Part shown: piece after piece, positions 56,447 to 64,000 of the stretch
How the letters are laid out: each line of letters opens with the position of its first letter
Numbering within the stretch: the first letter of the stretch is position 1
Source of the DNA: Saccharothrix saharensis
Lineage (GTDB): Bacteria > Actinomycetota > Actinomycetes > Mycobacteriales > Pseudonocardiaceae
Direction: 5' to 3'
Length of the DNA stretch: 64,000 bases
Assembly (NCBI RefSeq): GCF_006716745.1
Contig: NZ_VFPP01000001.1
Span: 1,736,001-1,800,000, forward strand
Program-made: the position numbers and the translations under genes
Notes under the pieces: generated by a model
Told to the model about the DNA's origin: nothing
The model's database searches: none
Seen by the model: the letters and a program-made list of their open reading frames with translations, nothing else

Positions 56447-58372
<1,926 letters not shown>

Positions 58373-58385
58373 CTAGACTCCGGCC

Positions 58386-59444
58386 ATGACCTCGACCAGA
58401 CGCTCGCCGTCCGACGCCGCCGGACGCGGGGGTGCGACCATCGCCCGCATCGCCGAGCTGGCGGGCGTGTCCACCGCCACGGTGTCCAAGGTCGTCAACG
58501 GGCGCGCGGAGGTCGCACCGGACACCCGCGCCCTGGTCGAGGCGGTGATCCGGGAACACGGGTACCGCAGGCAGAAGAAGGCCACCCGCGCGACCCTGGT
58601 GGAGCTGGTGCTGCACGAGCTCGAAGGCGCCTACGCCATGGAGATCATCAAGGGCGTGGAGCGCGTGGCCGGCGAGAACGAGCTGGCCGTGGTGCTCACC
58701 GAGCTGCACGGCCGGCACACCCCCGGGCGCACCTGGATCGACGGCGTGCTGGCCCGCAAACCGGCCGGGGTGATCACCGTGTTCTCCGCGCCCACCCCCG
58801 CCCAGCAGGAGCAGCTGGCCAGCCGCGAGATCCCGTTCGTGCTGGTCGACCCCACGAGCGACCCCGGCCACGAGTACCCGTCGGTCGGCACGAGCAACTG
58901 GACCGGTGGCCTGTCCGCCACCCGCCACCTGCTCGACCTCGGCCACCGGCGCATCGCCGCGATCACCGGCCCGCCCCACGCGCTGTCCAGCCGCGCCCGC
59001 CTCGACGGCTACCGGGCCGCCCTCGACGCCGCCGAGGTCCCCGTCGACCCCGCGCTCATCCGCGTCGGCGACTTCAACGTCGTCGACGGCCTCATCCACG
59101 GGCGCGACCTGCTACGACTGGACCAACCACCCACCGCGATCTTCGCCTTCAACGACGCCCAGGCCCTCGGCGTCTACCAGGCCGCCCACGAAGCCGGCCT
59201 GCGCATCCCGCACGACCTCAGCGTCGTCGGGTTCGACGACCTGCCACCCGCCCAGTGGGCCATCCCCGCGCTCACCACCGTCCGCCAACCCCTCAGCGAC
59301 ATGGCCGCCGCCGCCACCGACATGATCGTCACCCTCGCGCAGGGCGACGCCCTGCCCCAGCACCGCCTGATCCACTCCACCGAGCTCGTCGTCCGCGCGA
59401 GCACGACCACACCGCAGCCGCGACAGCACACCACCACTACGTGA
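58386..59444 (+). CDS. LacI-family regulator beside xylanase
   Basis: A 352-aa repressor: HTH TIARIAELAGVSTATVSKVV (residues 18-37), hinge, and sugar-binding domain with FNDAQALGVYQAA and VVGFDDLPPAQWAIPALTTV. It resembles the XylR/BxlR-like group, which release DNA on binding xylobiose or related sugars. It is divergent from the GH10 xylanase gene and is its most probable regulator; binding sites are inferred. ATG 58386 is supported by GGCC spacing only. It ends 23 bases before the convergent larE stop. Confidence 0.9.
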   Translation: MTSTRRSPSDAAGRGGATIARIAELAGVSTATVSKVVNGRAEVAPDTRALVEAVIREHGYRRQKKATRATLVELVLHELEGAYAMEIIKGVERVAGENELAVVLTELHGRHTPGRTWIDGVLARKPAGVITVFSAPTPAQQEQLASREIPFVLVDPTSDPGHEYPSVGTSNWTGGLSATRHLLDLGHRRIAAITGPPHALSSRARLDGYRAALDAAEVPVDPALIRVGDFNVVDGLIHGRDLLRLDQPPTAIFAFNDAQALGVYQAAHEAGLRIPHDLSVVGFDDLPPAQWAIPALTTVRQPLSDMAAAATDMIVTLAQGDALPQHRLIHSTELVVRASTTTPQPRQHTTTT

Positions 59445-59467: not shown

Positions 59468-60337
59468 TTAACGGCGCGGGTGAGGCCCAGCACCGTCGGC
59501 CGGAGTCGGGTCACGCCGTGGGGTCGCCGCTTCGTGGTTGAGCGCGCCGGAGCGGAACACCGCCAGTTCCACACCGTCGAACCCCGCCGCCCGGACGACC
59601 TCGGCCAGCGCGGTCCCGATCTCCGGCCGGTCGGCCAGGTGCGGGTCGAGCTCGACCCTCCCGGTGTCACCCAGGTCGCGCACCCGCAGGTCCCGGGTCG
59701 GTGTGCCGGCGGCCGCGAGCCACTCCCGGACGGCGAGCTCGGCGCGTTCCACCCGGGCCAGGCGGGCGGGGGTGATCGCGATGCCGTAGCGCACCCGGCT
59801 CGCCAGGCACGGCATCGCCGGTTTGTCCCAGGTGGACAGGTCCCAGAAGCGGCTCACGGCGCGGACGTCGGTTTTGGTCATGCCGAGGTCGCGCAAGGGG
59901 GTCCGCACGCCGATCTCGTCGCCGGCGCGGATGCCCGGCCGGAACGGGTCGTGCGCGTCGTCGGCGTTGACCCCGGTGGCGACCGTGCTCACGCCGTGGT
60001 CGCGGGCGACGGCGGTGATGGTGTCGAGCACGGTGGACTTGCAGAAGTAGCACCGGTCCCGGCCGTTCGCCGCGTACGAGGGGTCGTCCAGCTCGGCGGT
60101 CGCGGGCGTGAGGTGCCGGACGCCGAGGCGGTCGGCGAACGCGACGGCGTGGGCGAGCTCCGCGGCGGCCAGGCTGGCGGAGTCGGCGGTGACGGCGAGC
60201 ACCGCGTCGGGTCCCAGGGCGCGTGCGGCGGCGGCGAGCACGAGCGCGGAGTCGGCGCCGCCGGAGAACGCCACGGCCACGGGGCCGATGTCGGTCAGGT
60301 GCGCCACGAGTCGCGCGGCGGCCGTGCGGCTGTCCAT
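59468..60337 (-). CDS. larE: LarE, ATP-dependent sacrificial sulfur transferase
   Basis: A 289-aa PP-loop ATPase. SGGADS (residues 25-30) is the PP-loop; CYFCK (96-100) and the conserved Cys177 in MPCLASRVRYG match LarE. In LarE this Cys gives up its sulfur to make the thiocarboxylate groups of the nickel-pincer nucleotide (in some members a [4Fe-4S] cluster replaces the sacrificial Cys; which applies is not clear, as three Cys are present). It is the last gene of the minus-strand operon larA - glycerate kinase/larB - larC - larE, with ATG sharing a base with larC's stop (TGATG). Confidence 0.92.
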   Translation of the reverse strand: MDSRTAAARLVAHLTDIGPVAVAFSGGADSALVLAAAARALGPDAVLAVTADSASLAAAELAHAVAFADRLGVRHLTPATAELDDPSYAANGRDRCYFCKSTVLDTITAVARDHGVSTVATGVNADDAHDPFRPGIRAGDEIGVRTPLRDLGMTKTDVRAVSRFWDLSTWDKPAMPCLASRVRYGIAITPARLARVERAELAVREWLAAAGTPTRDLRVRDLGDTGRVELDPHLADRPEIGTALAEVVRAAGFDGVELAVFRSGALNHEAATPRRDPTPADGAGPHPRR

Positions 60338-61482
60338 CAGTGCTCCTCGGGGCTTTCCGCGGCCAGGGCGAGCACCGTGCGCAGCGGCACGCCGGTCCGC
60401 CGGGCGACGGTGACGGCGTCGTCGTACTCCGGCTTGCCGTGGTGCGGTCCGTGCTTGCGGCGTACCGGCAGGCCGTGGACGTGCACCGTGTCGGTGGTCC
60501 GGGGCAGGGCGGTGCGCCGCACGCCGGTCCGCCGCACGCCGAGGGTGCCGGTCTCGACCAGCATCAGCCGTTCGACGCCTTCGGCGGCCTCCGGAGCCAC
60601 CAGGGCGTGCAGCACGTGGCCCGGTCTGCCCTTCTTCATCACGGCAGGGGTGATCCAACTGTCCAGCGCGCCGGAGTCCAGCAGGAGGGCGACGAGGTAG
60701 CCGAGGACTTCCCCGGTGACGTCGTCGAGGTTGGTCTCCAGCACCACCAGGTCGCGCACGACCGGCTCCCGGTCGCCGAGCCGGACCACCGCGACGTTCG
60801 GCCGGTCGGGCAGCGTCCTGGTGCCCACGCCGTAACCGGTGGCCGTCATGCGCATCTCCGGCGCGGGACCGTAGTCCGCACCGATCGCGAGCAGCAGCGC
60901 CGCGGCGGTCGGCGTCACGGTCTCGCCCGGCAGGGTCGTGCCGACGACGCGCGCGCCCCGCAGCAGCGCCGAGGTGGCCGGGGCCGGGCAGGGCAGCACG
61001 CCGTGCGCCGTGCGGACCGACCCGGCGCCGATCGGCAACGCTTCGCAGTGCACGGTCCGCACGTCCAGGGCGCGCAGCGCGGCGGCCACGCCGACGATGT
61101 CCACGAGGGTGTCGTGACCGCCCAGTTCGTGCAGGTGGACGTCGTCGGGCCGGTGGCCGTGCACTCGCCCTTCGACCTCGGCGATGGCGCGCAGGGCGGC
61201 CACCGCGGTGTCGGCCACCGCCCGGTCGCGCACCCGGCCCGCCAGGGCGATCAGCTCGCCCGCCTTGCGGCTGGTGACGTGGTCGGACACCGACACGACG
61301 GCCCGGGAGCCGGTGAGCCCGTGGCTGAGCACCGACGTGACGGTGAGTTCCCAGCCGGTCAGCCCGGTGTCGGCGACGGCCGCCCGGACCGCGTCCAACG
61401 GCGCGCCGGCGTCGACCAGCGCGGCCAGCAGCATGTCACCGGCCAGCCCGGTGAACGGCGAGATCACGCACACCCGGCTCAC
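60337..61482 (-). CDS. larC: LarC, nickel insertase of the pincer cofactor
   Basis: A 381-aa LarC (DUF111). FTGLAGDMLLAALVDAG at the N-terminus, HLHELGGHDTLVDIVG, ETNLDDVTGEVLGYL and the C-terminal GALDSWITPAVMKKGRPGHVL match the family. It inserts nickel into the pyridinium bis-thiocarboxylate mononucleotide using CTP. Unlike the Lactobacillus gene, no programmed frameshift is needed: the frame is continuous. GTG 61482 overlaps the upstream fusion gene's stop (GTGA). Confidence 0.92.
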   Translation of the reverse strand: MSRVCVISPFTGLAGDMLLAALVDAGAPLDAVRAAVADTGLTGWELTVTSVLSHGLTGSRAVVSVSDHVTSRKAGELIALAGRVRDRAVADTAVAALRAIAEVEGRVHGHRPDDVHLHELGGHDTLVDIVGVAAALRALDVRTVHCEALPIGAGSVRTAHGVLPCPAPATSALLRGARVVGTTLPGETVTPTAAALLLAIGADYGPAPEMRMTATGYGVGTRTLPDRPNVAVVRLGDREPVVRDLVVLETNLDDVTGEVLGYLVALLLDSGALDSWITPAVMKKGRPGHVLHALVAPEAAEGVERLMLVETGTLGVRRTGVRRTALPRTTDTVHVHGLPVRRKHGPHHGKPEYDDAVTVARRTGVPLRTVLALAAESPEEH

Positions 61483-63275
61483 GTCGTCCGCCCCGCCACG
61501 CGGGCGAGCCGGAACGCCGCCATGGCCGCGCCGAACCCCGAGTCGATGTTGACCACGGTGATGCCCGCCGCGCAGGAGGCGTGCATCGCCAGCAACGCGG
61601 TGATCCCGTCGAGACCGGCGCCGTAACCCGTGGAGGTCGGCACGGCGACCACCGGGCACGCCACCAGACCACCGATCGCGCTCGCCAACGCGCCCTCCAT
61701 CCCCGCGACGACGATCACGGTGTCCGCGGCGCGCAACCGGTCCTGCTCGGCCAGCAACCGGTGCAGGCCCGCCACGCCGACGTCGGTGACGGTGGTGACG
61801 TCGAGGCCGGTGGCGGCGGCCACCGCGGCGGCCTCCCGCGCCACGGGCAGGTCGGCCGTCCCCGCCGCCGCCACGACCACGCCGAAGCCGGTGGACGGGG
61901 CCGGGCGCCACACGAGCAGGCGCGCCGCGCCGTCGTAGGACCCGTCGGGCACGGCGGCCAGCACCGACGCCGCCACGTCGCGGTCGACGCGGGTGGCCAG
62001 CACGGGGCCGTCGTTGTGCCGCAACAGGGTGCGCACGATCGCGATGACCTGCTCGGGGGTCTTCCCGCTGCCGTACACCACCTCGGGCAGGCCTTGCCGC
62101 GCCTCGCGTGCCACGTCGACCCTCGCGAACCCGAGATCGACCACCGCCGGCCCGGTCGTGCCCGGTCCCCGCGTGACGAGGTCGCTGCCCGCTTCGCGGA
62201 GCAGCGCGGAAGCCTTCCCCATCGCGGTGTCGAGGTCGCCCGCCCGCTCCAGCAGCGACCAGGCGGCGACCACGCCGAGGTCGCGCAGCCGTTCGGCGGT
62301 GAGCCCGACCGAGCCGGCGACCACCACGACCGGAACACCTCGTCGCCGTGCCGCCTCGGCCACCGCGAACGGGGCCTTGCCGCGCAGGCTCTGCTCGTCG
62401 AACCGGCCTTCACCGACCACGACGAGGGAGGCGTCTCGCAGCGCGTGCTCGACACCGATCTCGCGGAGGACGAAGTCGGCGCCGGACGTCCGCCGGGCGT
62501 TGAGTGCGGCCAGCGCCGCGAAACCGGTCCCGCCGGCCGCTCCCGCGCCGGGCTCCCCGCTGCGGTCCCGCCCGGTGGCCGCGGCCATCGCCGCGGCGAA
62601 CCGGCGGAGCCCGCGCTCCAGCACGTCCACGTCACGGGGTGTCGCGCCCTTCTGCGGCGCGAACACCGCGGCGGCGCCGTCGGGCCCGGTCAGCGGGTTG
62701 TCCACGTCCGACGCCAAGGTCACCCGCGCGCGCGCCAACCTCGGGTCCAGGCGGGACAGGTCGACGTGCGCGGTGCCGGTCAGCGCGCCGCCGCCGGGGC
62801 CGACCGGCTGGTCCGAGGCTGTGGTGACGCGTGCGCCCAGAGCGCGCAGCAGGCCGGCTCCCCCGTCCGTGGTGGCGCTGCCGCCCACGGCGAGCACCAG
62901 GTCGCGGCAGCCGCGGTCGAGCGCGGCTCGGATCAGCTCACCGGTCCCGTAGGTGTCCGCGGTGAGCGGGGCCAACCAGCCGTCGGGGAGCACGTCCAGC
63001 CCGCTGGCCTGCGCCAACTCGACCACCGCCCGGTCACCCCGCACCGCGAACGCCGCCCGCACCGGCTCGCCCGTCGGACCCGTGACCTCGACGCACACCT
63101 CGTCGTAGCCCGCGCGCACCAGCGCGTCCACGGTGCCCTCGCCGCCGTCCGCGACGGGCATCGCCACCGCGTGGCCGCCCGCGTCGACCACCCCGTCGCT
63201 CACCGCCGCGCAGGCCTGCGCGGCGGTGAGCGAGCCCCGGAACTTGTCCAGGCACACCAGGACCGTCCCGTTCAC
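61479..63275 (-). CDS. Glycerate kinase-LarB fusion protein
   Basis: One uninterrupted 598-aa frame. Residues 1-368 form a complete GlxK-type glycerate 2-kinase: VLVCLDKFRGSLTAAQAC, VADGGEGTVDALV, AVGGSATTDGGAGLLRALG, FAPQKGAT, VVVGEGRFDEQSLRGKAP. Residues about 375-598 form LarB: DLGFARVDVAREARQGLPEV, YGSGKTPEQV and a PurE-like carboxylase core (GTADLPVAREAA, STGYGAGLDGITALLAMHAS). LarB is normally a separate protein of about 246 aa that carboxylates and hydrolyses NaAD to P2CMN; here its first 20-30 residues are lost. GTG 63275 overlaps the larA stop (GTGA). Fusion in the nickel-cofactor operon suggests that the LarA enzyme makes or takes glycerate. Confidence 0.93.
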   Translation of the reverse strand: MNGTVLVCLDKFRGSLTAAQACAAVSDGVVDAGGHAVAMPVADGGEGTVDALVRAGYDEVCVEVTGPTGEPVRAAFAVRGDRAVVELAQASGLDVLPDGWLAPLTADTYGTGELIRAALDRGCRDLVLAVGGSATTDGGAGLLRALGARVTTASDQPVGPGGGALTGTAHVDLSRLDPRLARARVTLASDVDNPLTGPDGAAAVFAPQKGATPRDVDVLERGLRRFAAAMAAATGRDRSGEPGAGAAGGTGFAALAALNARRTSGADFVLREIGVEHALRDASLVVVGEGRFDEQSLRGKAPFAVAEAARRRGVPVVVVAGSVGLTAERLRDLGVVAAWSLLERAGDLDTAMGKASALLREAGSDLVTRGPGTTGPAVVDLGFARVDVAREARQGLPEVVYGSGKTPEQVIAIVRTLLRHNDGPVLATRVDRDVAASVLAAVPDGSYDGAARLLVWRPAPSTGFGVVVAAAGTADLPVAREAAAVAAATGLDVTTVTDVGVAGLHRLLAEQDRLRAADTVIVVAGMEGALASAIGGLVACPVVAVPTSTGYGAGLDGITALLAMHASCAAGITVVNIDSGFGAAMAAFRLARVAGRTT

Positions 63276-64000
63276 CGGCGTACCCCGTCGACGTAGGGGA
63301 TGGTCTGGGGACCTTCGGGCAGCACGCACAGCCGGGCGTCGGGACCGGCCGCCGCGAGCGCTTCGGCGACCGTCGCCGCGATGTCCGGGGTCTGCTCCAG
63401 GTGCGCGGTCGCCAGTTCGGCGGCGTCGAGGTGGGAGGTGTGCATGACGACCCGGCAGTCGGCTTGGATGCGCGCCTGGATCTGCACCTGCCACTGGTCG
63501 GGCACGGTCTCCCGCCGGGCGGAGATCTCCGCGAACAGCGCCGCCGGCGAGTCGGCCGAGGCCAGCACCTCCCGGTAGGACCCGTGGTCGGGGAACCCGT
63601 CGCGGCACTCGGCCGCGCACACGATCACCCCGCCCGGTTCGACCACCTGGTAGGCGGCCGACATGCCCTTCACCGACTGGTAGAGGTTCTGGTCCAGCGG
63701 ATAGCCGGAGTTGGTGGTCACCACGACGTCGAACCGGTGCGGCACCGGTCGCATGGCCACCTCGCGCGCGGTGCGCACCGCCTCGGCGTGCATCGCCGGC
63801 AGGTCGCCCCCGAACGCGGCGACCACCTGCTTGTCCCGGTCCAGCACGACGTCGAACCCGAACGTCACACCCGTGGCGTGCGCGATGGCGCGCACGTCGT
63901 CGTGCACCGGGTTGCCCTCGACGATCCCCCACGTCGCCCGCGGATCGCCGATCCGACGCGCGTCGTGCAGCACCAGCACCGTCTCCAGCGCGGCCAACCC
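63272..64000 (-). CDS. larA: LarA-family nickel-pincer enzyme, C-terminal part
   Basis: The frame runs off the window end, so only the last 242 codons are visible. They belong to the C-terminal domain of LarA/DUF2088: GIVEGNPVHDDVRAIAHATG, FGFDVVLDRDKQVVAAFGGD, VVTTNSGYPLDQNLYQSVKG, PGGVIVCAAECRDGFPDHGS, VLPEGPQTIPYV. Family members use a nickel-pincer nucleotide bound to a Lys in the N-terminal half (not in view) to racemise or epimerise lactate, malate or other 2-hydroxyacids. The fused glycerate kinase downstream hints at glycerate. The protein is coupled to that gene by GTGA. Confidence 0.9.
   Translation of the reverse strand, partial: GLAALETVLVLHDARRIGDPRATWGIVEGNPVHDDVRAIAHATGVTFGFDVVLDRDKQVVAAFGGDLPAMHAEAVRTAREVAMRPVPHRFDVVVTTNSGYPLDQNLYQSVKGMSAAYQVVEPGGVIVCAAECRDGFPDHGSYREVLASADSPAALFAEISARRETVPDQWQVQIQARIQADCRVVMHTSHLDAAELATAHLEQTPDIAATVAEALAAAGPDARLCVLPEGPQTIPYVDGVRR

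Follow-up and report, generated by a model that had tools for sequence, protein, structure and literature searches.

Analysis of a 64,000-nucleotide stretch of the Saccharothrix saharensis genome (contig NZ_VFPP01000001.1, positions 1,736,001 to 1,800,000; referred to as the window) revealed an operon in which genes for a LarA-type racemase and for the Lar proteins of nickel-pincer nucleotide (NPN) synthesis lie together with a glycerate kinase (GK) gene, which is read in one frame with larB. The host genome comprises 8.92 Mb in a single contig, and the operon, which extends beyond the window end, was completed from the genome sequence. In the order of transcription, it encodes an FCD/GntR-type regulator, a hydrolase remnant, an aldo/keto reductase, an amidohydrolase, LarA, the fused GK-LarB, LarC and LarE. 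An enolase-superfamily dehydratase, a short-chain dehydrogenase/reductase (SDR) and a sugar ABC importer are encoded divergently from the operon. From the aldo/keto reductase gene through larE, every gene overlaps the next by 1 to 4 bases. The lar genes are located on the reverse strand. The 3' part of larA occupies positions 63272..64000 of the window, and the gene (427 aa in total) continues to C1:1800555 of the genome, beyond the window end. The fused GK-larB gene (61479..63275; 598 aa, GTG start) is followed by larC for nickel insertion (60337..61482; 381 aa), which overlaps it by 4 bases, and by the sulfur transferase gene larE (59468..60337; 289 aa), which overlaps larC by 1 base.

The fused frame contains no internal stop codon across its 598 aa. 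Residues 5 to 366 matched the Gly_kinase domain PF02595 near end to end with 412 bits (cut-off, 23.3), and the GK half scored 371 bits against the class I glycerate kinase model TIGR00045 (cut-off, 168). The match in the Protein Data Bank (PDB) for residues 5 to 362 was glycerate kinase 2 (3cwc; 250 bits). The GK half thus has the full-length domain of known class I kinases (PF02595; 3cwc and 1to6) but differs from them in being joined to LarB and in scoring below the cut-offs of the E. coli-type equivalogs (267 against 686 bits for NF007668 and 305 against 625 bits for NF007401). The product of class I kinases is 2- or 3-phosphoglycerate, and the GK half would form one or the other. The kinases compared in PMC2063504 prefer D-glycerate. 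Residues 386 to 592 scored 255.6 bits against the curated LarB model NF033503 (cut-off, 175), residues 379 to 594 matched the LarB structures 8soq and 7mj0, and Cys568 is the conserved counterpart of the cysteine aligned in these structures. Compared with these LarB proteins, which act as nicotinic acid adenine dinucleotide carboxylase/hydrolase in NPN synthesis, the LarB half is unusual in carrying an N-terminal GK and in having no free start. A GTG at 62144-62142, two codons 5' of the conserved DLGFAR motif, is a possible internal start for free LarB; a single fused polypeptide is the likely product. An earlier note made from the window alone had described one uninterrupted 598-aa frame for the two proteins and the order larA-[GK-larB]-larC-larE. 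The analysis confirmed both.

The ratio of nonsynonymous to synonymous substitutions (dN/dS) was 0.18 to 0.22 for GK in pairs with the window strain and 0.17 to 0.19 among relatives. For LarB, the corresponding values were 0.11 to 0.15 and 0.07 to 0.17. Because these ratios are near those among relatives, both halves appear to be kept under purifying selection. The genome contains one LarA and one LarB above cut-off, both belonging to this operon.

Comparison of LarA with the lactate racemase equivalog NF033504 gave 548.4 bits (cut-off, 460). The catalytic and NPN-binding positions 72, 75, 108, 174, 184, 200, 294, 295, 298 and 358 are conserved, and the second catalytic histidine is followed by FF, the signature of the lactate racemase group (PMC7583248). 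A sugar-acid epimerase of the LarAH14/15/16 kind, acting for example on L-fuconate, was considered and rejected on the basis of this signature and of a score of 61 bits versus 740 for the respective model. At the position corresponding to residue 359 of LarA1, which was singled out by the authors of the study on glycerate-active homologs, the window LarA carries Gln, as does LarAH43 (PMC11770544). LarAH43 converts glycerate with 114,000 per M per s and L-lactate with 83,000 per M per s; for LarA1, the values are 6,000 and 100,000 per M per s, respectively (PMC11770544). The window LarA resembles these two homologs in its full length, conserved sites and FF loop, and shares Gln359 with LarAH43; it is unlike them in being located in a sugar-acid operon with a GK. 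Gln359 permits glycerate as a substrate and is no proof of it. Glycerate is a plausible substrate of the window LarA, an idea strengthened by the other pairings of larA with GK described below.

The remaining genes of the locus suggest a route 3 non-phosphorylating L-fucose pathway. The putative L-fuconate dehydratase matched the structure 1yey with 669 bits over residues 5 to 431 of 435. For the amidohydrolase, the best NCBIfam match was L-fucono-1,5-lactonase (NF052480; 234.8 bits, under the cut-off of 400), and the best matches among solved structures were 4dlf and 4dnm. Among solved structures, those closest to the aldo/keto reductase were L-galactose dehydrogenases (118 bits). Family membership of the SDR is certain; no specific model for 2-keto-3-deoxy-L-fuconate 4-dehydrogenase was reached, and its placement follows from context. 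The hydrolase gene of the operon is a remnant of 87 aa on the reverse strand beyond the window end (L004:12377-12640, genome C1:1802377-1802640), from which about 590 bp have been deleted internally. Its full-length counterparts in relatives belong to the FAH family (PF01557), with L-2,4-diketo-3-deoxyrhamnonate hydrolase as the best solved match, and reach 306.9 bits against an equivalog cut-off of 500. The nearest full-length paralog in the same genome (64%) lies at C1:4398202 and is part of a second fucose-type cluster (L135:6030-10554, C1 approximately 4,394,500-4,399,050), which encodes a regulator, a reductase, an SDR, an L-fuconate dehydratase-like protein and this hydrolase; no match to a lar gene or a lactonase was detected in that cluster.

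In the characterized route 3 of Xanthomonas and Herbaspirillum, L-fucose is turned into pyruvate and L-lactate (PMC11199699, PMC6336799). The locus described here shares with it the clustering of a dehydrogenase, a lactonase-like protein, an L-fuconate dehydratase, an SDR and an ABC importer and, in relatives, the FAH-family hydrolase. It differs in that larA, larB, larC and larE are present as well, joined by GK in some lineages, and in the truncated hydrolase of the window strain. With respect to the L-galactose series, the route 3 4-dehydrogenase of Herbaspirillum acts on it with 1,480 versus 7,900 per min per mM (PMC11199699), and an aldo/keto reductase from Paraburkholderia accepts it as well (PMC6336799). 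From the chemistry of the pathway, L-galactose, if it entered this route, would be expected to yield pyruvate and, in place of L-lactate, L-glycerate at the hydrolase step.

To describe the conservation of this arrangement, larA loci were collected from relatives. Of 346 genomes of the family, 52 contained LarA at E <= 1e-70. Besides the own locus, 53 others were read, giving 54; each covers about 20 kb or, where a contig ends, less. In a class-wide sample, 14 of 394 genomes contained LarA, 13 besides the own. Genes were called by codon usage; some were missed, such as the GK gene of L130, which was recovered by translated search. A lactonase-family gene was present in 34 of the 54 family loci and a full-length FAH-family hydrolase gene in 27. 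Loci were termed fucose-type if they contained the lactonase and at least one more pathway gene. This applied to 37 of all 67 larA loci, including loci of another family, and their LarA proteins formed a clade in a tree that also contained long branches (L134, the PDB entries and others). GK was encoded at larA in 18 of the 67 loci, 15 of which were fucose-type (in one of these, L077, the contig end falls inside GK). In the second family (f91), larA, larB, larC, lactonase, SDR and reductase genes were present in all five of the loci L123 and L125 to L128, four of which also contained dehydratase, hydrolase and larE genes. The sixth locus, L124, contained larA, larB, larC, hydrolase and SDR genes, and GK was found in none of the six. 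A variant represented by 12 loci, L069 and eleven others, has a different ABC importer and a different enolase-superfamily dehydratase, for which L-talarate/galactarate dehydratase was the nearest solved match (127 bits). Gene calling gave a rhaM-family mutarotase in 10 loci, including 8 of the variant type. In three loci of the Saccharothrix group (L095, L099 and L100), the lactonase and larA genes adjoin a large gene of one family. In L095, the one of the three that was scanned for domains, the pair (L095:9719-15017) adjoins a glycoside hydrolase of family GH95 that carries lectin domains. GH95 includes alpha-L-fucosidases and alpha-L-galactosidases.

Outside the fucose-type loci, GK was encoded at larA in 3 of 30 loci (L108, L116 and L130); two other loci of these 30 (L072 and L124) hold pathway genes and no lactonase gene. 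In L108 (L108:5639-12292), the gene order is LctP permease-larA-GK-larE-larB-larC. In L130 (L130:6782-14913), it is sugar-diacid-type regulator-GK-LctP permease-larA-larE-larB-larC. In L116, larA overlaps GK. L108 and L130 are candidate operons for the utilization of DL-glycerate. The three GK proteins show 38 to 43% identity to the window GK. Their LarA partners form separate branches outside the fucose-type clade. The GK proteins themselves also lie on long separate branches, whose exact place is unsure, in a tree that sampled the fucose-type GKs (10 of 15) and the control loci (27 of 80); L019 was left out owing to an internal stop. The control consisted of 80 plain GK loci from named genomes, which were found with two GK peptides and read with flanks that extend 10 kb at most and less where a contig ends. 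None of these 80 loci contained a match to LarA, LarB, LarC or LarE, and an FAH-family gene was present in two. By a rough estimate, two GK places per 8.9 Mb would give about 0.13 coincidences in 30 stretches of 20 kb, compared with the 3 seen; since the loci are related, this does not amount to a probability. These comparisons support the view that GK and LarA go together.

Taken together, these data argue for a model in which the operon represents the end part of a route 3 catabolic cluster for L-fucose and L-galactose. The aldo/keto reductase would oxidize the sugar, and the amidohydrolase would open the lactone. From the acid, the L-fuconate dehydratase would produce the 2-keto-3-deoxy acid, which the SDR would oxidize further. 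Cleavage by an FAH-family hydrolase would yield pyruvate and an L-2-hydroxyacid, which would be L-lactate from L-fucose or L-glycerate from L-galactose. LarB, LarE and LarC would make the NPN to be loaded into LarA, LarA would racemize the L-2-hydroxyacid, and GK would phosphorylate D-glycerate to phosphoglycerate, which enters glycolysis. GK and LarB would act as separate enzymes that share one polypeptide here through the merging of overlapping genes. The genes, their order, their conservation and the merger are established; the individual reactions, the sugar and the use of glycerate by this LarA are predicted. That LarA racemizes the L-hydroxyacid of the pathway and GK captures the D-glycerate at the end of a route 3 cluster is the reading we favor, and we regard it as rather probable. 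A broader proposal is put forward tentatively, at slightly under even confidence: the nickel-pincer racemase would be the hinge of a branch of L-galactose (and L-fucose) catabolism that leads through L-glycerate, and in other actinobacteria the LarA-GK module would form a stand-alone DL-glycerate operon together with an LctP permease, joined in a single instance by a sugar-diacid-type regulator.

Several observations weigh against the favored reading. Gln359 does not discriminate, being present in all 67 loci and also in LarAIp, an enzyme with a preference for lactate and 2-hydroxybutyrate, and its value as a glycerate marker is weakened accordingly. In 22 of the 37 fucose-type loci, larA occurs without GK. 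The hydrolase gene of the own operon is reduced to a remnant, full-length copies being found in relatives. Both the lactonase and the hydrolase score under their equivalog cut-offs, and the SDR is unassigned below the family level. A search of the own locus gave no match to a rhaM-family L-fucose mutarotase. A characterized class II glycerate kinase showed 30% activity with L-glycerate (PMC2063504); therefore, inversion would be helpful, and a racemase is perhaps not strictly needed. In addition, in a locus of the Kitasatospora group (L227), GK lies close to genes for a reductase, an SDR and a dehydratase, and the stretch read gave no match to larA or larB.

The strongest alternative is that LarA serves as a lactate racemase for L-lactate derived from L-fucose or from uptake, and that some lineages gained GK to use D-glycerate of another source, so that the operon would be shared and the substrate not. 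Route 3 on L-fucose does yield L-lactate (PMC11199699), LarA passes the lactate racemase model, and a permease of the LctP (lactate/glycolate) family is encoded in L108 and L130, two of the three operons that pair GK with larA outside the fucose-type loci. Moreover, lactate is possible as the native or usual substrate because the majority of the fucose-type loci, the 22 mentioned above, do without GK. However, GK is encoded at larA in three further, differing contexts and lar genes are missing near all 80 control GK genes, and LctP is not lactate-specific, as the glycolate permease GlcA belongs to the same family. On balance, this alternative appears unlikely, though clearly not negligible. 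For the claim of the earlier note that LarA acts on glycerate, the outcome is mixed: the LarAH43-like pocket (FF and Gln359) and the occurrence of GK beside larA, in 15 of 37 fucose-type and 3 of 30 other loci, speak for it, and the fucose-type loci without GK speak against it. A LarA tree, which the note had called for, recovered the fucose-type clade and placed the GK-paired LarA proteins of L108, L116 and L130 outside it.

The origin of the GK-larB fusion was traced by comparing the junction (62142..62160, reverse strand), which comprises the former overlap of the GK stop and the larB start as well as the GTG at 62144-62142, with the junctions in relatives. Among 14 loci of the Saccharothrix/Lentzea group holding both genes, a stop codon parts GK from larB in 12, of which 9 show a 4-base overlap (ATGA or GTGA). 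The overlap reads ATGA in relatives and ACGA at 62159-62156 of the window, where the larB start codon has been lost and the frame changed at the old gene overlap. The other locus of the 14 lacking a stop is L066 (G627), whose read-through frame retains an in-frame larB ATG. Close matches were also found in Kitasatospora, in 6 of 394 genomes sampled from the family of G894. One of these is fused (G1189; 100% identical to the Kitasatospora gansuensis protein P0002), four have a stop followed by 42 to 49 bases to the first larB match, and one has GK with no larB nearby. GK and larB are thus split in four of the five Kitasatospora loci holding both; in L225, L226 and L228, the order is lactonase-larA-GK-larB-larC-larE. 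Because the operon GK halves of the Saccharothrix/Lentzea group and of Kitasatospora form one branch, the adjacency of GK and larB may be of common ancestry and the mergers separate. In a phylum sample of 396 genomes, with scoring limited to 3 candidates per genome, the match of the own genome was the only one among those listed to cover both domains. A database search found PF02595 and LarB domains together in 2 of the best 120 of 262 proteins. In the same 120, LarB was joined to a LarC domain (15 proteins), to a LarE-like ATP-pyrophosphatase domain (4) or to LarA (1); some of the listed joins may be gene-calling artifacts. Some LarB proteins among the listed matches were also joined to NUDIX (PF00293).

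From these comparisons, the fusion appears to have arisen locally and recently, as a rare event in which two overlapping genes merged. It is real but ordinary in kind, as judged from the repeated merging of lar-operon neighbors, and it looks incidental and unneeded for the pathway. The view of the earlier note that the kinase is hard-wired to the cofactor pathway did not hold up, since the genes are split in most relatives read, and the fusion proved not to be generally unsplit, as the stops in 12 of 14 and 4 of 5 loci indicate; the two-domain architecture that it had proposed to look for does exist elsewhere, but is rare.

A decay of the operon, in which the GK stop and the larB start were lost by drift and the hydrolase gene was deleted, or a sequencing error at the junction, would offer another explanation. 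The internal loss of about 590 bp from the hydrolase gene, the 12 unfused loci among 14 and the disrupted larB of L082, one of these 12 split loci of the same group, are in line with decay. On the other hand, the dN/dS of both halves is near that among relatives, the remaining operon genes are full length, and a paralogous hydrolase is present in the genome. An error would need a frame change plus the removal of the larB start codon, and a fused copy is also present in K. gansuensis; an assembly artifact, which the earlier note had named as a possible refutation, was rejected as the principal explanation on the same two points and is unlikely. This explanation is regarded as improbable. A functional fusion, in which channeling or co-localization, for instance, would tie glycerate flux to the synthesis of the cofactor, would fit the apparently separate mergers in Saccharothrix and Kitasatospora and the read-through frame with its in-frame larB ATG in L066, but is very improbable given that the genes are apart in most relatives read and that the joining of LarB to LarC, LarE-like and LarA domains points to the merging of operon neighbors.

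In the vicinity of larE, inspection by eye showed a gene for a secreted, GH10 xylanase-like protein with a cellulose-binding domain (56447-57844, reverse strand) and one for a LacI-type regulator (58386-59444, forward strand).

With regard to previous work, the statement of the earlier note that no enzyme of this kind had been described is wrong, as LarA homologs racemizing glycerate were published in 2024 (PMC11770544). The sugar pathway had been missed by that note because its genes lie beyond the window end. Glycerate racemization is already known in the LarA family; the setting here is that of a sugar-acid pathway ending with a nickel racemase. In the open-access literature searched, which includes few subscription papers, nothing was found that pairs NPN with glycerate kinase or larABCDE with fucose, and there was no mention of "glycerate racemase." One paper retrieved for lactate racemase and fucose (PMC11851776) contains fucose as a crystallization additive and as part of a reference title only, and L-glycerate together with L-galactose led to work on plant ascorbate. 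Any novelty is limited to the literature searched.

The fusion by itself is of little weight. If the proposed pathway is true, a rare L-sugar would be fed to lower glycolysis through a nickel enzyme, and the racemization of glycerate by LarA would gain a physiological role. This operon and the permease-LarA-GK operons together provide a testable proposal, namely, that D-glycerate, derived in the present case from a sugar pathway that would form L-glycerate, is supplied to glycerate kinase by the racemase.

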